This document shows, piece by piece, positions 4,785 to 44,732 of a stretch of 44,734 nt of DNA (position 1 is its first letter; each line of letters opens with the position of its first letter). The stretch covers positions 1 through 44,734 of the forward strand of contig CAINLR010000157.1 in the NCBI GenBank assembly GCA_903850425.1, in the 5' to 3' direction. The notes under the pieces are model-generated. The model did not search any database. It was not told where the DNA came from and saw only the letters and a list, made by a program, of their open reading frames with translations. The stretch comes from an uncultured Verrucomicrobia subdivision 3 bacterium (lineage in GTDB: Bacteria > Verrucomicrobiota > Verrucomicrobiia > Limisphaerales > UBA11358). The position numbers and the translations under genes are program-made.

Positions 4785-4864
4785 AACCACGGATCAACAC
4801 AGATTAACACGGATTTTGGGAACGGTTGCTTTCCATCGGTGTTGATCCGGGTCCGTCCGTGGTT
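4785..4864. repeat. AACCACGGA-ended inverted repeat, copy 1
   Basis: The ends AACCACGGA (4785-4793) and TCCGTGGTT (4856-4864) are perfect inverse copies. The inside contains repeated ACACGGAT-like words (GGATCAACAC, TTAACACGGAT) that pair with GTGTTGATCCGGGTCC near the right end. A closely related element lies at 25310-25395. The repeat separates the cyclophilin gene from the small gene that starts 11 nt downstream. Confidence 0.8.
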
Positions 4865-19466: not shown

Positions 19467-19613
19467 GAAATAGCCCAGCCATTGATGGCTGGGTATCTCG
19501 CCAACCAACAATTCAAAGTCGCGTCAGGGACGGCAGACAATTTCTTTCGTCCCTGACGGGACTGGGGATGTTGCCGAACCGTGAACCCAGCCATCAATGG
19601 CTGGGCTATTTTC
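19467..19613. repeat. MITE-like element with GAAAATAGCCC ends, copy 2
   Basis: The left end GAAATAGCCC (19467-19476) and right end GGGCTATTTTC (19603-19613) are inverse. Each flanks a full palindrome, CCCAGCCATTGATGGCTGGG (19474-19493) and its inverse at 19586-19605. Inside, CGTCAGGGACG (19522-19532) pairs perfectly with CGTCCCTGACG (19548-19558). End sequence and inner GGGAC module match the shorter element at 17567-17679. It lies downstream of the exonuclease gene. Confidence 0.7.
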
Positions 19614-25296: not shown

Positions 25297-25309
25297 TTCA
25301 AATCAAATG

Positions 25310-25395
25310 AACCACGGATGGACACGGATCAACACGGATAACAAAAGTGTATCCGGTTGCTTCTGATCCGTGTGCATCGGTGTCCATCCGTGGTT
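25310..25395. repeat. AACCACGGA-ended inverted repeat, copy 2
   Basis: The outer arms AACCACGGATGGACAC (25310-25325) and GTGTCCATCCGTGGTT (25380-25395) are perfect 16-bp inverse copies. GGATCAACACGGAT words continue inside. It is the same family as 4785-4864. It fills the gap between the ABC ATPase stop (25399) and the permease start (25296). Confidence 0.85.
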
Positions 25396-25398
25396 AAA

Positions 25399-26598
25399 TT
25401 ATTTCTTCCCACCCAGCAGCGATGAGAGTTTTTCATCCGCCTTGGCCAAATCGGCCGGCTTCACCGCCGGCGCAGATTCGGTTTTGCTGGGAACGGCTTC
25501 GACCGCCTTGCCCAGTGCGGCCAGCTTGCTTTCATTCACCGCTGTTTTTGTTTCCACGGTGGAAGTTGGAGCGACTGCCTGCGTTTGCGGCAAGGACAGC
25601 TTTTCCAGGATTTTGTCCGCCGCCGGTTTGGCTTCCACGCCGCCGCGCAGATACTCCGCCACCCGCGCCCCGGATTGAGCGCCGCTGGTTTCATTTGCCG
25701 CGCGAGCCTTCGCCACGACGTCGAGGAAATAGCTTTCGAGATTCTGCGTCGGATTGTCCACGCGCACTTCGCCTTTGGAAATATCCTTGCGGATGATTTC
25801 CAGAACGCGTTCCAAGGTTTCGCGCGGCAGCACGGGCGTTGTAATTTGAAGCGTGTCCGGCGTCGCCAGCAATTCGTTCAAGGTGCCGGCGGCCTGAATT
25901 TTGCCGCCGTAATAAATGACCACGCGGTCGCAAACGTCCTCGACGTCAGACAGCAAATGGCTGCTCAAGATCACCGTCTTGCCGCGCCGCGCCAGCGCGA
26001 TGATCAAATCCTTCACCTCGCGACAGCCAATCGGGTCAAGCCCGGCGGTTGGCTCGTCCAGGATGATGAGGTCGGGATCGTTGATGAGCGCCTGCGCCAG
26101 ACCGATGCGGCGCTGCATGCCTTTGGAAAACTCGCCGACGGCACGCGTCTGGGTTTTACCCAGACCGACCATTTCCAGCAATTGTTCCGCGCGATTGTTG
26201 CGGTCGTCCTTGGAGAGATGAAACAGGTTGCCGAAAAAATCCAGCGTCTCGCGCGAGTTGAGATAGCGGTAAAGATATGATTCCTCCGGCAGATAGCCGA
26301 TGCGCGACTTCGTCTGCACATGCCGCGGCGAATGGCCGAAGACTTCAATGTGGCCTTTCGTAGGATTGAGCAGGCCGAGGAGCAGCTTGACGGTCGTGGA
26401 TTTGCCGGAACCGTTCGGTCCGAGTAAACCAAACACTTCGCCGCGCCGGACTTCAAAATCCACGTTGTCCACGGCGCGCGCCTTGGGGCGATTCCAAAAG
26501 TCCTTGAAAACTTTCGTCAACCCGCGCACGGACACGATAACCTCATCGGATTTTTGATTTCCGATGTCCGATTTCCGATTTAATTCAGCGACAGGCAT
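25399..26598 (-). CDS. ABC exporter ATP-binding protein with C-terminal extension
   Basis: 399 residues. Walker A GPNGSGKST is at 60-68, then IGYLPEESYLYRYL (Q-loop region), the signature FSKGMQRRIGLAQALI, Walker B LIILDEP with AGLDPIG, and the switch His in ILSSHLLSDVEDV. The core is related to the ATPase at 7535-8299. Two oddities: the N-terminal segment NRKSDIGNQKSD is encoded by a TCGGAAATC-type repeat, and the last 90 or so residues form an Ala/Lys/Thr-rich low-complexity tail ending in KLSSLLGGKK. It should energise the permease at 23905-25296, and possibly that at 33212-34174, which has no ATPase of its own nearby. Confidence 0.92.
   Translation of the reverse strand: MPVAELNRKSDIGNQKSDEVIVSVRGLTKVFKDFWNRPKARAVDNVDFEVRRGEVFGLLGPNGSGKSTTVKLLLGLLNPTKGHIEVFGHSPRHVQTKSRIGYLPEESYLYRYLNSRETLDFFGNLFHLSKDDRNNRAEQLLEMVGLGKTQTRAVGEFSKGMQRRIGLAQALINDPDLIILDEPTAGLDPIGCREVKDLIIALARRGKTVILSSHLLSDVEDVCDRVVIYYGGKIQAAGTLNELLATPDTLQITTPVLPRETLERVLEIIRKDISKGEVRVDNPTQNLESYFLDVVAKARAANETSGAQSGARVAEYLRGGVEAKPAADKILEKLSLPQTQAVAPTSTVETKTAVNESKLAALGKAVEAVPSKTESAPAVKPADLAKADEKLSSLLGGKK
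26545..26582. repeat. Repeat encoding the N-terminus of an ABC ATPase
   Basis: ATTTCCGATGTCCGATTTCCGATT-type sequence, made of repeated TTTCCGAT words, is read in frame as RKSDIGNQKSD between the ATG and the first strand of the ATPase. It is absent from the paralogue at 7535-8299. Confidence 0.5.
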
Positions 26599-35571: not shown

Positions 35572-38500
35572 TCACCCCGCCAACAGATAGCGCAGATCGT
35601 CCAGCGACAAGCCCTGCGCAAATTTCTCCTCGCCCAGCACGTCATTAGCAAGCGAGTGCTTTTGCTTTTGCAGGGAGCGAATTTTTTCCTCGATGCTGTC
35701 TTTGATGAGCAGCCGGTAGGCCATGACTTTGCGGGTCTGGCCAATGCGGTGCGTGCGGTCAATGGCCTGGTTCTCCACCGCCGGATTCCACCACGGATCG
35801 AACAGCACAACGTAACTAGCCGCCGTCAGATTCAGGCCGAAACCGCCGGCCTTGAGCGAAATTAAAAATACGCCCTCGCCTTCTGCCGCTTGAAAATCCT
35901 TCACCAGCTCGCCGCGATTCTCCGTTTCGCCCGCCAGATACCAGTGCTTCCATTCGCGCTTTTTTATTTCATCGCGCAGAATGTCGAGCAAGCCCACGAA
36001 CTGCGAAAACACCAGCACCTTCTCGCCTTCCTCGATCAACGGTTCGAGCGTCTCAATCAGCGCTTCAACCTTGGCGCTGGCGGCTTTCGAGTCGGGCTTC
36101 ACCAGTTGCGGGTGACAGCAAATCTGCCGCAGCCGCAGCAGCGAGGTGAGGAAGTTGAAGCGTTCCTTGTTCAGCGCCGCCGCCGTTTTCACGCCGAGCA
36201 GCATCGCTTGGGCGCGCTTGAGTTCGGCGCGGTAGAGCGTCTTCTGTTCGCCTTCCATCTCGCAAAACAAATCTTCCTCCATGCGATCCGGCAGGTCGCG
36301 CGCGACCTGTGCTTTGGTGCGGCGAATCAGAAAAGGCCGCACGCGCGCCGCGAGCCGCTGGCGGGCGAATGGATCGTCCTTCGCGTCATAGAGCCGACCG
36401 AATTGCGCGCGGTTGCCGAGCGCGCCGGGCATGGCAAAACTCATCAGGCTCCACAAATCCAGCAGCCGGTTTTCGATGGGCGTGCCGCTCAAGATCAACC
36501 GGTGGGTGGAACGCAACTGCCGCGCAATCTGTGCCGTCTGGCTGGAAGGATTCTTGATGTATTGCCCTTCGTCGAGAATGACGGCTTGAAACCGTTCGCG
36601 CGCGAGGTCTTCGCCCACCACGCGGAGCTGGCTGTAATTCAAGACGTGTAAATCCGCCGAGGCCAGCATCCCGGCAACGGATTTGAGTTCACTCGCCGAC
36701 CACACGCGGACTTTCAGCGACGGGAAAAATTTCACCGCCTCGGCATGCCAGTTGTCGGCGACGGATTTGGGACAGACGACGAGACTGCTAGTGGCACGGG
36801 CGTCCCGCCCATGTGTTTCTTGACCGGCAGATGAAGTCACGGGCGGGACGCCCGTGCCACTACCATTCCGCAGCCACGCCAGCCACGCGAGCGTCTGCAG
36901 AGTTTTTCCCAGCCCCATGTCATCGGCCAGGATGCCGCCGAAATGATTGGTCGAGAGATAGCAGAGAAAATGAAAACCATCGCGCTGATACGGCCGCATC
37001 TCCGCCTGGATTTCCACCGGCACCTCCGGCGTGACGCGCGCCTGCAGTTCCGTGGCGCGCCGTTCGATGCGTTCGCAGGTTTCCTCCGGCAGAAATTTTC
37101 GCGCCGCTTTGTCCGCGAGTTGAAACGCGTGCAGCCGCTGCGGTTCGCTGGTCAATTCGTGCGACGTCAGACCAAGCCGCGCCAGTTCCTCGTCCTCTTC
37201 CTTGCTCAAGGCAAACTCCAGTTTGCGCCAGCCTTTCTTGCCGACGCGCACCCATTTGCCCTTGGCGTCGAGCAACAGTTTGATTTCCTCCTGCGTCAGC
37301 GTGGCGTCGTTCACGTCCACGATCACGCGGAGATCGAACCAGTCCATCTCCGTCTCGCTGGCTTCGAGCCGGATTTTGCCGGACACCTCGGCGTTTTGGA
37401 ACGACGCCAGTTCGCCGCGCAGTTCGATCCGCGTGCCGGCCGGCATGGCCTTGAGGAATGGAACAAAAATTTCCGGAAATCTTTTCGTCAGCCGCAGCGA
37501 CCAGCGACCGGAATGAAAGTCCCATCTGAACCCGGCCGCTTCGAGTGGCGCGGTCAGCGCATTCAACGCGGAACGATCCAGCCGCAGCAAATCATTCTCG
37601 CGCGCCAGCGGATTTGACGCCGACTCCGCCGTGGGCAGCCAGCCGTTCGCCGTCCAGTGCTCGATGAATGTCGCGTCGTCGGAAACGCCCAGCAAATCCA
37701 CATAGCAACTCTCGCTGGCCATGCCCGGCCAGGGCGACTTGACCTCCGCCCGCAAACACGGCTTGAGTTGAACTGTGCGCACGCGCGCGGCCAGACGCGG
37801 CGGCGGCTCAACGTGGAGCCGCGTCAGCAGGCGCAGTCCACCGGCGGATTCAAACGCCTTCGCGGGAATCACCGTCGGCTCGTGCAGCGCCATGAGATGC
37901 GGCTCGAACGGCGGGCCGTTGAAGATACCCAGCGGCGTGAGATAAAGCACCGGTTGCGAAGGCGTGGTGAACCAAATTTCCGGCAGCGGTTCGCCGTCGG
38001 CTTGCAGCAGGGAAAGCGAATAATCGCCCTCCGCATCCTCGGGCTGCGTGACTTGCCAGCGCAGTGGGGCCGCATGAAAAACGAGCGGCTCCCCGGCGGC
38101 GTTGGCCAAGAGCGGACGCAAATGCGGCTGGCGAAACCAGCGCCCCGACTGCTCAGACATCCACGGGTCGGTGTAGGCAAGCGAACTGGAGGAATAGACC
38201 TGCGAGCGTTGCCAATAGGGAAGCCAGAGCAGCGCCGCCTCCGCCGAAAGCTGGGGCGCATGGGTGGCGTCGAAATCACGAAGTTTGCCCGGCTTCAACG
38301 CCAGCCATTCGCCGCCAGTGATCCGCCATTCCAACGATGCCTGCCTCGGATTGAAGCGCAGCCGCAATTCCACCGGCCCAGCCGACTGCGGCGTGGCGGT
38401 CGTCGGATTCGCCGGGTCGCCGAGCCGCGATAAAGTTAAGGTCCAGCGCTCGATTTCTTTGCCGCGCCGCAGCCGGTGCATCCGGTCGCGCACGACGGTC

Positions 38501-39180
38501 AAATCCGTCACTGGCTGCAGAAATTCCGGGATCGGGACCTTTAGCTTCTCGGTAAAATACAGCGCGAGATAATTCCAGAATTCCGCCTCCGTCTTCGGCA
38601 CGCTGGGATAAAGCTCCAAACGGTCCCACGAGTGAAACTTGTGACCGACCCCCAGCGCGCTGAGTTCGTTGATGTAAAAAAGTCCGCCGATGCGCGCCTG
38701 CTGGAAAAGCCGGCTGATATTTTTCAGGAAGTTCGCTTCCTCAGCCGTTGGTTTCCGGCCCAGCTTCCGCCGGACCTGATCCGCAAACGTGGCCGGCTTG
38801 CCGGAAGCAACCTTTGGTTTGGGCAGAGCGAAGGTTTTCCCGTCCGACACGCTTAAAGTATCCACCGCGGCGCTGGAATATTCCGCGAGCAATTGCATGA
38901 ACGCGGCATAGGCATGCTTGCACTCATATTCAACCGGACAACTGCATTCCTCCATCCAGCCGGTCTCGTGCGGATCGAACGTCAGCGAGACCTCATATAA
39001 ATCTCCGCCCTGCACCGTCGCCGTGTAATGACGACCTGGCACCAGACACGCCAGCGACTTCACCGCCCCGGCTTGCAAATACGCTTCACCCCGTTGTCGC
39101 GTGCGCGGGTCGTAATATTTCAGACAACTTCTGACGTCGTCCGCATTGAATCCCACGAAATCAGCGGCCTGTAATTTCAT
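35572..39180 (-). CDS. SWIM zinc finger SNF2-family helicase/ATPase
   Basis: 1202 residues from ATG 39180 (a GTG at 39201 adds 7). The SWIM zinc finger CSCPVEYECKHAYA is at 79-92. A long middle part (about 150-690) is rich in Trp/Arg and beta strands. The SNF2 core begins near residue 725: RPYQRDGFHFLCYL, motif I DDMGLGKTLQTLAWL, motif II DEGQYIKN, motif III LSGTPIENRLLDLW, LLRLRQICCHP, motif V GGFGLNLTAASYVVLFDPWW and motif VI QAIDRTHRIGQTRKV. It should move on double-stranded DNA using ATP and remodel bound proteins. Between motifs I and Ia a translated palindromic element adds about 24 residues (GTGVPPVTSS ... HGRDARAT). No defence or restriction genes are adjacent. Confidence 0.93.
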   Translation of the reverse strand: MKLQAADFVGFNADDVRSCLKYYDPRTRQRGEAYLQAGAVKSLACLVPGRHYTATVQGGDLYEVSLTFDPHETGWMEECSCPVEYECKHAYAAFMQLLAEYSSAAVDTLSVSDGKTFALPKPKVASGKPATFADQVRRKLGRKPTAEEANFLKNISRLFQQARIGGLFYINELSALGVGHKFHSWDRLELYPSVPKTEAEFWNYLALYFTEKLKVPIPEFLQPVTDLTVVRDRMHRLRRGKEIERWTLTLSRLGDPANPTTATPQSAGPVELRLRFNPRQASLEWRITGGEWLALKPGKLRDFDATHAPQLSAEAALLWLPYWQRSQVYSSSSLAYTDPWMSEQSGRWFRQPHLRPLLANAAGEPLVFHAAPLRWQVTQPEDAEGDYSLSLLQADGEPLPEIWFTTPSQPVLYLTPLGIFNGPPFEPHLMALHEPTVIPAKAFESAGGLRLLTRLHVEPPPRLAARVRTVQLKPCLRAEVKSPWPGMASESCYVDLLGVSDDATFIEHWTANGWLPTAESASNPLARENDLLRLDRSALNALTAPLEAAGFRWDFHSGRWSLRLTKRFPEIFVPFLKAMPAGTRIELRGELASFQNAEVSGKIRLEASETEMDWFDLRVIVDVNDATLTQEEIKLLLDAKGKWVRVGKKGWRKLEFALSKEEDEELARLGLTSHELTSEPQRLHAFQLADKAARKFLPEETCERIERRATELQARVTPEVPVEIQAEMRPYQRDGFHFLCYLSTNHFGGILADDMGLGKTLQTLAWLAWLRNGSGTGVPPVTSSAGQETHGRDARATSSLVVCPKSVADNWHAEAVKFFPSLKVRVWSASELKSVAGMLASADLHVLNYSQLRVVGEDLARERFQAVILDEGQYIKNPSSQTAQIARQLRSTHRLILSGTPIENRLLDLWSLMSFAMPGALGNRAQFGRLYDAKDDPFARQRLAARVRPFLIRRTKAQVARDLPDRMEEDLFCEMEGEQKTLYRAELKRAQAMLLGVKTAAALNKERFNFLTSLLRLRQICCHPQLVKPDSKAASAKVEALIETLEPLIEEGEKVLVFSQFVGLLDILRDEIKKREWKHWYLAGETENRGELVKDFQAAEGEGVFLISLKAGGFGLNLTAASYVVLFDPWWNPAVENQAIDRTHRIGQTRKVMAYRLLIKDSIEEKIRSLQKQKHSLANDVLGEEKFAQGLSLDDLRYLLAG
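36789..36862. repeat. In-frame palindromic element in the SNF2 gene
   Basis: GTGGCACGGGCGTCCCGCCC (36791-36810) and its perfect inverse (36841-36860) surround a 30-nt loop. TA flanks both ends (36789-36790, 36861-36862) and could be a duplicated TA target. Element plus one TA is 72 nt, that is 24 codons, with no stop in the gene frame. Confidence 0.85.
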
Positions 39181-39276
39181 TTCAGCAATACGCCGCGTCA
39201 CGCCCGCGCGCCAGCGATGGCCGGTTTCAATGCGCCGCCGCCCGCGCAGTAAAACGGCGCGGCGAGAACGCTATCG

Positions 39277-42122: not shown

Positions 42123-44732
42123 TCATCCCATCGCGCGGGCAATGCTGTTCCACCACGGATCGTGCAACTCGGTGAGCGGGGCGGAGCATTCGCCGCCGGC
42201 GGTTTTCACCGTGAGCTGGTCGCCGCCGACTTTGCCGATCTGCACCGCGGGCACGCCCATGAGCTTGGCGCGTTCGACCACTTTCACGGCGTCGAGCGGT
42301 TTGCAACTGATAACGACGCGGGATTGCGTTTCGCCGAAGAGCAACGCATCAAGGCGAGTTTCAAGTTTCAAGTTTTCAGTTTCAAGTTGAGCAGGCGCAG
42401 CGCCCTGAACACTTGAAACTTGAAACTTGAAACTGCTCAAATCAACTGAAGCTCCAATCAACCGAGGCGTTTCCCGAGCAATCAATTGCGAGATGCAGCT
42501 TTCGGCGAGCGCGACGGCGAGGCCGCCTTCGCTGCAATCGTGCGCACTTTTCACGAGGCCGGACTGAATCAGGCCGATGAGCGTGGTGTGCAGCGTCTTT
42601 GCTACTTCGAGGTCGCAGCGCGGCGGCGAACCATTCTTTTTGCCGTGGACGACTTGCAAATACGCGCTGCCGCCGAGGCCGAGAATCGGGTCGGCTTGAT
42701 CCACCGCGCCGCCGAGCAGGATGATGGCGTCGCCTTCGTCCTTGAACCATTGCGTGGTGACGTGCTCCAGCTTCTCAATGATGCCAACGACGGAAATCGT
42801 GGGCGTCGGATCAATCGGGCCGGCGGGATTTTGATTGTAGAGCGAGCAATTGCCGCCGGTGACGGGCGCGTTGAAAGCCTTGCAGCCTTCCGCCAGGCCG
42901 CGCACTGATTCCTTGATCTGCCAGAACAACTCGGGCTTGAGCGGGCTGGGCATGTTGAGATTATCCGTCGCGCCGAGCGGAATCGCACCGGAGCAAGCAA
43001 GATTCCGGCACGCCTCGGCCACGGCGATTTTCGCGCCTTCGTAGGGATCGAGATAAACGTAGCCGCCGTTGCAGTCCACGGTCATGGCGATCAACTTTTC
43101 GGGAAAAGGGAGCGCAGGCGTCTCGCGTGCAGCGTCCGGCGTCGCGCCGGACGCTTCCAAACCACCCTTCAAGTTTGTTGAACGAGAACCCGGCGCGACG
43201 CCGGGTTCTGCAGGCGGGACGCCTGCGCTCCCCTGAACGGGAATTGAGTCTGCCTTAATCCGAATCACCGCGGCGTCGCTGCCGGGCAGGACGACCGAGC
43301 CGTCGCGCACTTGATGATCGTATTGACGATAGACCCAGTTCTTCGACGCAATGCTTGGCCACGCGAGCAGCTTCTTCAAAACGTCCGCGGGCGCAGTCGT
43401 GTCGGCGATGCCGTCGAGGCGGAACGCCTTCACTTCTTTGATGTAGGCCGGTTCAACGCCTTCGCGATGATACACCGGAGATTCGTCCGCAATTTTTTTT
43501 GCGGGAATGTCCACGACGAGTTTGCCGCCGTGGCGCACCTTCATGTGGCCGGTATCGGTGATGATACCGATCTCGGCCCACGGCAAATCCCATTTGTCGA
43601 AAATGCGTTTCACTTCCTCTTCGCGGCCCTTGTGGACGACGATGAGCATGCGCTCCTGCGATTCCGACAACATGAGTTCGTAGCTGCTCATGTTCGCCGC
43701 GCGTTGCGGAACTTTGTCGAGTTCGATCTCGATCCCCGTGCCGGCGCGCGCGGCCATTTCGCAGGTCGAACAAGTCAAACCCGCTGCGCCCATGTCCTGC
43801 ATGCCGGCAACCGCGCCGGTGGCGAGCAGTTCCAGACACGCTTCGCACACGAGCTTTTCCATGAACGGATCACCGACCTGCACCGCGCCGCGCTGCTGTT
43901 CGGACGATTCCTCGGTCAAATCCTGCGACGCAAACGCCGCGCCCGCAAGACCGTCGCGCCCCGTCGCCGGGCCGACGTAAAACACGGGATTGCCCACGCC
44001 CTTGGCCGCGCCGCGCGTGATCTGTTCATGGCGCAGCACGCCGAGACAGAACGCGTTCACGAGCGGATTGCCTTGATACGTTTTGTCGAAATACACCTCG
44101 CCCGCAACGGTCGGGATGCCGAAGCAATTCCCGTAATGCGCGATGCCACTGACGACGCCGGCGAACAATCTCCGATTGTTGGCAATTTCAGCTTTTGTGC
44201 TTTGGGGATCACGCGCGCCCTCGCGCGTTGCGGACGACGCCCCGTCGTTCGCTTTCCCGTTTACGGTTGACGGGGCGTCAACCGCTGCGCCCGAGGCGGG
44301 CGCGCTCCCCAATCCATTTTCCGTGATCGGCCCGAAGCGCAAAGAGTTCACCGCGCAGACGGGCCGCGCGCCCATCGTGAAAATGTCGCGCACGATACCG
44401 CCGACGCCGGTGGTCGCGCCTTGGAACGGCTCGACCGCGCTCGGATGATTGTGCGACTCGATCTTGAACGCGATGGCGATGCCGTCGCCGATGTCAATGA
44501 TGCCGGCGTTTTCCTCGCCCGCGCCGACGAGGATTTTCGGCGACTTGGTGGGGAAGGTCTTGAGCAGCGGCTTGGTGTTTTTGTAGCTGCAATGCTCGCT
44601 CCACATCACGGAAAAGATGCCGAGCTCGGTGTAGCTCGGCGTGCGGCCGAGGATTTCCACGGCGTGGGCGTATTCTTCCGGCGTGAGGTTGTGCTTGGCA
44701 ACCAACTCTGGGGTGATGGCGGGTTCGGTCAT
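42123..44732 (-). CDS. purL: Phosphoribosylformylglycinamidine synthase subunit PurL, with three in-frame insertions
   Basis: 869 residues, complete, against about 740-770 for this type. It makes FGAM from FGAR, ATP and glutamine-derived ammonia (with PurQ and PurS, not seen here). The family blocks are intact: [105 protein letters not shown] and [17 protein letters not shown]. Three low-complexity insertions, at residues about 139-184, about 500-545 and about 765-795, coincide with palindromic DNA elements and account for the extra length. None carries a stop. A broken copy of its 3' end lies at 35394-35559. Confidence 0.95.
42357..42434. repeat. In-frame element 1 in purL (heptamer palindrome)
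   Basis: The left arm is built of AGTTTCA heptamers (from 42357) and the right arm of the inverse TGAAACT heptamers (to 42434), around GAGCAGGCGCAGCGCCCTGA. The span is 78 nt, 26 codons. It encodes FKFQVSSVQ, then GAAPAQ, then [11 protein letters not shown]. Confidence 0.8.
43108..43232. repeat. In-frame element 2 in purL (three-stem palindrome)
   Basis: The outer arms, GGGAGCGCAGGCGTC-type (43108-43132 and 43208-43232), pair with two mismatches. The inner stems are CGTCCGGCG/CGCCGGACG (43133-43153) and GAACCCGGCG/CGCCGGGTTC (43186-43208). It encodes [19 protein letters not shown] and then an Ala/Gly/Pro-rich stretch up to ETPALPF. Confidence 0.85.
44202..44312. repeat. In-frame element 3 in purL (three-stem palindrome)
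   Basis: The ends TTGGGGA and TCCCCAA (44202-44208, 44306-44312) lead imperfect GC arms. The inner stems are GACGACGCCCCGTCGT-type (44229-44251) and GGTTGACGGGGCGTCAACC (44265-44283). The span of 111 nt is exactly 37 codons. It encodes [19 protein letters not shown] followed by a Ser/Ala/Arg-rich stretch. Confidence 0.8.

Follow-up and report, generated by a model that had tools for sequence, protein, structure and literature searches.

A REPIN in frame in an SNF2 helicase gene of an uncultured Verrucomicrobiota bacterium and related RAYT cassettes nested in housekeeping genes

The window analyzed here is the 44,734-nucleotide (nt) contig CAINLR010000157.1 (assembly GCA_903850425.1) of an uncultured Verrucomicrobia subdivision 3 bacterium of the order Limisphaerales, which carries a 74-nt palindromic block at 36789–36862 within a gene for an SNF2-family helicase. 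This block very probably is a doublet of repetitive extragenic palindromic (REP) sequences forming a hairpin (REPIN) that was mobilized in trans by a REP-associated tyrosine transposase (RAYT) into a permissive SNF2 loop, where it is translated in frame with its host. The window REPIN is also the small end of a wider pattern visible directly in sequence, in which complete RAYTs between REP-like inverted repeats lie in frame and free of stop codons in recurrent loops of housekeeping genes and keep their catalytic residues.

The block consists of TA, a 20-nt arm, a 30-nt loop, the inverse arm and TA. With TA included the arms (36789–36810 and 36841–36862) are exact reverse complements of 22 nt each around a loop at 36811–36840, and an inverted-repeat search extended over mismatches returned the block as pair I5 with 31-nt arms (90%). 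As RNA, 80 nt over the element fold at -61.1 kcal/mol (z -9.6; 0 of 200 shuffled sequences equal), and the DNA fold gives z -8.3. Each arm contains the REP unit [G]TAGTGGCACGGGCGTCCCGCCCGTG, and the two units stand head to head with 24 nt separating their 23-nt cores. The minus-strand unit bears the tag GTAG and the plus-strand unit CTAG; folded alone as DNA, the former reaches z -4.42 (0/200 shuffles equal) and the latter z -1.33 (24/200). Because each arm has a hairpin of its own with a GTAG or CTAG tag and head-to-head copies occur elsewhere, the block is a REP pair (REPIN, or bacterial interspersed mosaic element, BIME), a kind of element already known, also inside Verrucomicrobia genes. 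A further reference on such elements is Bertels and Rainey (2011; PMC3116915).

The minus-strand host open reading frame (ORF) stays open through the element and reads SGTGVPPVTSSAGQETHGRDARAT between DDMGLGKT, which is SNF2 motif I, and LVVCP, the motif Ia region. A first-pass annotation of this DNA had described a perfect palindrome of 22 bp, its arms 30 nt apart, inserted in frame between these motifs, and both the coordinates and the open frame agree with it. The protein matches the Pfam families SNF2-rel_dom (residues 738–1033) and Helicase_C. An alignment of the window's SNF2-type protein with 29 such proteins of other genomes, often paralogues, shows that the stretch separating the two motifs differs in both length and composition, as expected of the variable loop in which that annotation had placed the insertion. 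The element peptide is confined to the window's protein among the 30, which refutes conservation of the segment in all SNF2 relatives, an observation that had been named as speaking against an insertion. The same loop is occupied in genome G187 (L302), where a RAYT, assigned by 52% identity to the dnaE RAYT and by its HUH and Tyr motifs, lies with REP-like flanks between DEMGLGKT and LVICP. SNF2-loop peptides ITDHASRITHHA and TLNSQPSTLNPS in L046, L037 and L038 resemble, by eye, translations of other repeat DNA.

Copies of the REP unit are found in the window's genome and well beyond it. At up to three mismatches the 21-nt core of the arm has 20 matches in the window's genome against 2 for the reversed control pattern; twelve of these matches are arranged as six head-to-head pairs with differing loops. 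Of 293 genomes of the order, 19 (the window's among them) carry a 24-nt version of the arm with at most one mismatch, up to 73 times in a single genome. In the public genome set 60 stretches contain the exact 25-mer; 34 belong to records named as Verrucomicrobia or phylum members, 15 to one Phycisphaerales metagenome-assembled genome and 11 to others. From a subset of the related loci we drew 50 distinct head-to-head pairs, chosen by near-exact arms. Two reading frames of the arm are in use among them (SGTGVPPV...HGRDARAT and VARASRP...TGGTPVP), and a single open reading frame per arm was rejected. Of the 27 distinct open readings across these pairs 20 were scanned with Pfam, which recognized a host in 13 (12 genes) and none in 7. 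The hosts include UvrD, HrpA-type and DinG/XPD-type helicases (labels inferred from domains), two protein kinases, a GH2 enzyme, DnaE and the window's SNF2; in 2 of 14 host pairs (L087, L146) the recognized domain lies on one side only. The spacer is divisible by three in 12 of the 14 pairs in Pfam-recognized hosts vs 20 of the 36 other pairs, the exceptions being the two kinase hosts (L068 and L090), and this excess is no more than suggestive of selection on frame in a sample picked for near-exact arms and dominated by a single class of 18-nt spacers. On an Acidobacteria contig (L141, 3275–3580) three REP pairs stand in tandem, about 100 nt apart.

The ends of the window element also bracket a transposase. 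In the dnaE gene of G026 (L122) a REPIN, a Pfam Y1_Tnp (PF01797) transposase and a second REPIN follow one another in one stop-free frame between the finger and HHH domains, and the ends of this cassette are those of the window element. A lone REPIN occupies the same dnaE site in G009. As far as the sequences go, the window REPIN stands to the G187 SNF2 cassette as the G009 REPIN stands to the G026 dnaE cassette. By eye, the SNF2, DnaE and PurL loops of other genomes also carry other repeat-like sequence, so that permissiveness of the loops is part of the pattern and may account for much of the site sharing without homing.

Further RAYTs nested in this way were found in the order and the phylum. 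Our order-level survey, which kept ORFs of at least 300 aa, yielded 56 RAYT copies in 53 ORFs, and a phylum-wide search of 387 genomes added 8 ORFs, its three weakest matches being free-standing; the total is 64 copies in 61 long open frames. Hosts were assigned by comparison with masked references and by Pfam. In the order they are AlaRS (alanyl-tRNA synthetase, 28 ORFs), PriA (7), ThrRS (threonyl-tRNA synthetase, 5), DnaE (3), a DinG-type helicase (3), ClpB (2), SNF2 (1), a NOV_C helicase (1) and three unclear cases (weak UDPGP, weak N6_Mtase, none); the phylum-wide search added AlaRS (5), RecG (2) and a NOV_C helicase (1). The window's own genome has a Y1_Tnp domain inside its only full alaS match. 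Three AlaRS ORFs (L311, L312, L313) hold two RAYT copies each. Host protein is found on both sides in the same frame for 52 of the 64 copies (44 by reference, 8 by Pfam or alignment); eight of the other 12 are cut by contig ends, three have unclear hosts and one has a frame break (G037). Thus, host and RAYT share a frame in 52 of 53 copies with host sequence on both sides. A nested alaS RAYT in G132, a genome present as a single contig, argues against draft assembly as the general explanation.

The transposase domains look intact. Across the order's 56 copies, with 12 duplicate loci and L265 (27% identity) set aside, the HUH motif is present in 56 and the Tyr motif (Y..NP) in 54, L294 being cut by a contig end and L303 unmatched. 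Of the 61 nested ORFs, 28 were run against Pfam, and 24 matched PF01797 with E no higher than 0.001, four of these below the family cut-off; the four ORFs that were missed (L250, L252, L302, L321) all match RAYT queries by blastp. The cassette ends are inverted as well. In 50 of the 52 copies whose flanks reach 60 nt (four with shorter flanks were left unscored), the two RAYT flanks form an inverted repeat with a score of 14 or more, as did none of 52 shuffled pairs and none of 33 pairs of host-only stretches; the exceptions are L276, with none, and the first copy of L313, with a score of 10. Typically, two REP-like hairpins follow one another, of the GGGGAGC or GGGTGGAAC types in the alaS/thrS clade and of the GTAGGACAGG or TAGTGG types in the dnaE clade.

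Insertion sites recur. The 36 AlaRS copies map to two places, near residues 299–307 (10 copies) and 416–424 (26 copies) of the G042 protein. Seven of the copies could be placed by a single flank, and one upstream end deviates, at 453. Four of the five ThrRS copies start after a similar ...GAAAA/GTAAA sequence and the fifth a few bases further. In the alaS gene of the window's genome (L011/L152) a tandem SPNVG-type repeat lies at site A, where other genomes carry a RAYT.

Searches with the alaS and dnaE RAYTs as queries scored the best ten or so candidates per genome, and their counts are lower bounds. With the alaS query at least 55 of 320 genomes of the order have a match at E 1e-8, and phylum-wide 12 of 387 genomes have a RAYT match at E 1e-12. 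The alaS-query matches listed at E up to 1e-29, 41 in 33 genomes, all fall in stop-free frames of at least 555 aa; among the matches listed the next best has E 2e-15, and the weaker ones mix long and short frames, including free-standing alaS-type matches at 40–41% identity over short stretches (e.g. G037:C31, G213 and G198). By this E-value cut-off, one RAYT clade, the alaS type, appeared only in long frames. For the dnaE query 42 of the 113 matches listed, among them the 22 best, lie in frames of at least 500 aa (one with a stop) and the remainder in frames of 172–420 aa. A general Y1_Tnp search as control gave frames up to 333 aa among the matches listed, which were its strongest. A long frame alone is no proof of nesting, and hosts were checked for the 61 ORFs.

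On a quick tree of 70 RAYT segments (no bootstrap, several long branches, 6 free-standing rows) the label 'host gene' requires 16 changes, vs a mean of 32.7 for shuffled labels, and none of 200 shuffles came down to that value. The ThrRS copies form one group, as do the ClpB copies, and AlaRS copies need six changes. Grouping by host gene would be expected of homing elements, and the evidence for that likeness is circumstantial. For AlaRS, 433 pairs drawn from 28 of 33 ORFs (30 of 36 copies) show only a loose correlation of host identity with RAYT identity (Spearman 0.38). The AlaRS N-parts of G587 and G645 are 94% alike and their RAYTs at the same site 45%; in G068 and G183 the hosts are 78% and the RAYTs 87% alike. 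Between the window's genome and eight others the RAYT ratio of nonsynonymous to synonymous divergence (dN/dS) is 0.034–0.090, with the flanking alaS higher in each pair (0.088–0.257), values that are read at dS near saturation (pS 0.60–0.73; a ninth pair was fully saturated). These data fit elements that are old, repeatedly re-inserted and selected for protein function. Recent horizontal transfer of the alaS RAYT between these pairs was considered and is not supported: at synonymous sites the RAYT has diverged no less than the alaS around it.

In the mechanism that we propose, a RAYT, as a Y1/HUH single-strand transposase, would cut single-stranded REP ends and move either the whole cassette or, in trans, a short REPIN. 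The window REPIN would have entered the permissive SNF2 loop in a frame where neither arm yields a stop and would be translated as an insertion of about 24 residues in SNF2. Insertions into variable loops would survive when the frame remains open, and cassettes inside housekeeping genes would be hard to lose, as a deletion that is not precise destroys the gene. As a working model we favor a selfish element that would persist since its ends and its transposase can be read through as a tolerated protein domain in genes where an imprecise loss carries a high cost. For the window REPIN, sequence, structure, copies, in-frame position, absence from the homologues examined and RAYT-bracketing ends elsewhere are direct observations, from which we infer its transposition by a RAYT and its translation. 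We give even odds to a further-reaching proposal, that a Y1/HUH lineage has become obligate in coding genes, in frame and stop-less, translated as an extra domain, catalytically intact and spreading to the same loops of other genomes, with REPINs like the window's as its short non-autonomous forms.

Several observations weigh against the REPIN and RAYT mechanism proposed for the window. No clean empty SNF2 site was found among the homologues, the loop of the closest one (G038, L033; 63% aa identity) being unalignable. One window arm has CTAG and a weakened hairpin, and REP copies number in the tens and not the hundreds. The dependence of the window REPIN on a RAYT is seen as shared ends in another species, and the PF01797 matches in the window's genome have no adjoining arm at up to three mismatches. 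The G187 SNF2 RAYT misses E 0.001 in Pfam Y1_Tnp, dS is close to saturation in the pairs given above, and in the alaS of G037 (L249) the RAYT and the C-part share a frame that the N-part does not, which reflects either a broken or decayed gene or a sequence error.

Low dN/dS, intact HUH and Tyr motifs and presence across families and classes would also suit a domesticated host function, in which the Y1 domain processes REP-bearing DNA or RNA inside a core enzyme and the REP peptides are by-products. We think this unlikely. Presence is patchy, as the genome counts above show, and the two AlaRS sites, the double copies in three AlaRS genes, the many different hosts and the loose coupling of host and RAYT, as in G587 and G645, speak against it.

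The first-pass annotation had suggested a MITE-like element (miniature inverted-repeat transposable element) flanked by TA as a duplicated target. A small mobile-type insertion that keeps the frame stands; plain terminal repeats do not, since the arms are tagged REP hairpins, and a hairpin with GTAG or CTAG in each arm suggests transposases of the RAYT (Y1/HUH) kind. TA target duplication by a MITE of a DDE transposon (Tc1/mariner-like) does find some footing in the data, as TA closes both arms in the window element and in 31 of the 50 related pairs, and the spacers divisible by three in 12 of 14 intragenic pairs would fit a net length of the element minus 2, an argument weakened by the 20 of 36 other pairs that are also divisible by three. 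The dnaE site, where the cassette has the same ends, allows a measurement. Its interval is 31 residues in 19 of 29 homologues and 33–67 residues in ten, and with TA counted once the G026 cassette leaves exactly the 15-nt loop of the 19 short homologues; the bases disagree, since none of the 19 has TA where it would be expected and 2 have it at any point of the loop. The length at this dnaE site thus fits a single TA and the bases do not, and TA as a duplicated target stays an interpretation. G precedes TA in 38 of 76 ends with TA, the same ends bracket a Y1/HUH transposase (no search for a DDE transposase was made), and TA makes more sense as a piece of the terminal tag because sister families end GGGG...CCCC, an inverted and not a direct repeat. 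We regard the DDE origin as improbable.

It is very improbable that protein splicing, RNA excision or bypassing by the ribosome takes the nested elements out, leaving a mature protein that lacks the inserted domain. On the side of such removal, the window element would fold into a strong hairpin in mRNA, the G037 frame break would be harmless if the RNA were removed, and inteins favor similar hosts. However, no Hint or intein family was found in the 28 of 61 nested ORFs scanned with Pfam, nor in the Pfam-scanned REPIN hosts, and the frame shared in 52 of 53 copies counts against removal because a skipped stretch need not stay open. There is next to no chance that the SNF2 segment is ordinary coding sequence of a loop that does vary in length and composition, palindromic by accident, given the perfect 22-bp inverted repeat and its fold (z -9.6), and the copies of its 21–25-mers elsewhere in its own and other genomes refute it.

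The window contains a second REP-type element, an inverted repeat in frame in a purL-type gene (Table 1). This insert is found in the window's protein alone among 14 aligned PurL proteins, one other having a different insert there. Its arms resemble, by eye, the terminal repeats that bracket the RAYTs in alaS and thrS, and it is perhaps a RAYT-less miniature of the alaS/thrS-nested family. There are also repeat-like stretches in the same gene at 44219–44296 and 42357–42434 (an inverted repeat and AGTTTCA-like tandem arms), in loops that differ among relatives. In the purL gene of G037 (L330), loop 1 (...SGTGVSPVQ...DRRDACPTT) resembles by eye a window-type REP pair. Elsewhere in the window, 19468–19611 holds a perfect 27-bp inverted repeat (AAATAGCCCAGCCATTGATGGCTGGGT) of another repeat family with 90 nt between its arms, and ACCACGGAT-type inverted repeats lie at 25305–25400 and 4785–4864.

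Table 1 Features of the window discussed in the text (positions on the 44,734-nt contig)
Feature	Position	Strand	Basis or remark
Host gene, SNF2-family helicase, 1209 aa, open across the element	35572..39201	-	ORF translation, Pfam
SNF2 motif I (DDMGLGKT)	36901..36924	-	counted from translation; alignment
SNF2 motif Ia region (LVVCP)	36769..36783	-	counted from translation; alignment
Head-to-head REP pair (REPIN), 74 nt	36789..36862	.	read in frame on minus strand
REP unit 1, TAGTGGCACGGGCGTCCCGCCCATG, C before it giving CTAG	36789..36813	+	one change from unit consensus, own hairpin weakened
REP unit 2, GTAGTGGCACGGGCGTCCCGCCCGTG, intact GTAG tag	36838..36863	-	8-bp stem CACGGGCG/CGCCCGTG, 3-nt loop
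PurL-type protein (AIRS, AIRS_C, FGAR-AT linker), 869 aa	42123..44732	-	host of second element
Second REP-type inverted repeat (pair I1), in frame in purL-type gene	43108..43232	.	inverted-repeat search

If the account given here is true, nested RAYTs represent a further way, beside inteins and introns, of living inside genes that cannot be lost, and the persistence of RAYTs and REPINs becomes directly testable. Their host enzymes would also offer natural cases in which a foreign domain of 150–250 residues is tolerated. For annotators, a transposase domain in such a protein is not necessarily an assembly or annotation error; part of the text of PMC6006769 has unexpectedly long proteins discarded as gene fusions or annotation errors. 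By title and abstract, none of the papers listed in a search of open-access text describes RAYTs nested in frame in host genes, and that search found no transposase read through as a domain of AlaRS or DNA polymerase III at recurring loops under purifying selection.

The closest known elements are REPINs or BIMEs and GTAG-class REPs with RAYTs, which share with the window element head-to-head hairpins tens of nt apart; their GTAG tag stands on the minus-strand unit of the window element, the other unit having CTAG. In the portions of Di Nocera et al. (2013; PMC3733652) on which we draw, intragenic REPs are reported, those of the GTAG class most of all in Opitutus terrae (Verrucomicrobia). More than half of the intragenic inserts are dimers or groups, encoding 20–30 aa, and many hosts act in DNA synthesis and repair, with RNA helicases among them in O. 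terrae. The likeness to these GTAG-class REPs is one of description, the window consensus not having been compared with that paper's families, and a transposase gene nested in frame in a host gene is a feature of the present elements that those portions do not describe. The same source defines TIRYTs as tyrosine transposases between terminal inverted repeats, some with a GGGGWSAS motif. Many alaS/thrS-type cassettes resemble them in their GGGGAGC-type terminal inverted repeats (by eye) and intact HUH/Tyr transposase; unlike the TIRYTs described there, which are genes of their own, the present transposase frame continues through both ends into the host. Rickettsia palindromic elements (RPEs) are likewise palindromic repeats translated in frame in many proteins. 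RPE-4 and RPE-6 belong to the CGTC class, for which that text states no association with transposase genes, whereas RAYT-bearing versions exist here.

A last comparison is with inteins and homing endonucleases, in which a DNA-cutting domain lies in frame in conserved genes and the same sites are reused across species. The nested RAYTs differ in that no splicing domain was found and the enzyme is a Y1/HUH transposase, and the case for homing, made up of shared sites, gene-specific lineages and loose coupling to the host, is circumstantial. A lineage of such transposases confined to alaS sites A and B, thrS, priA, recG and other genes would lead an intein-like way of life without splicing.

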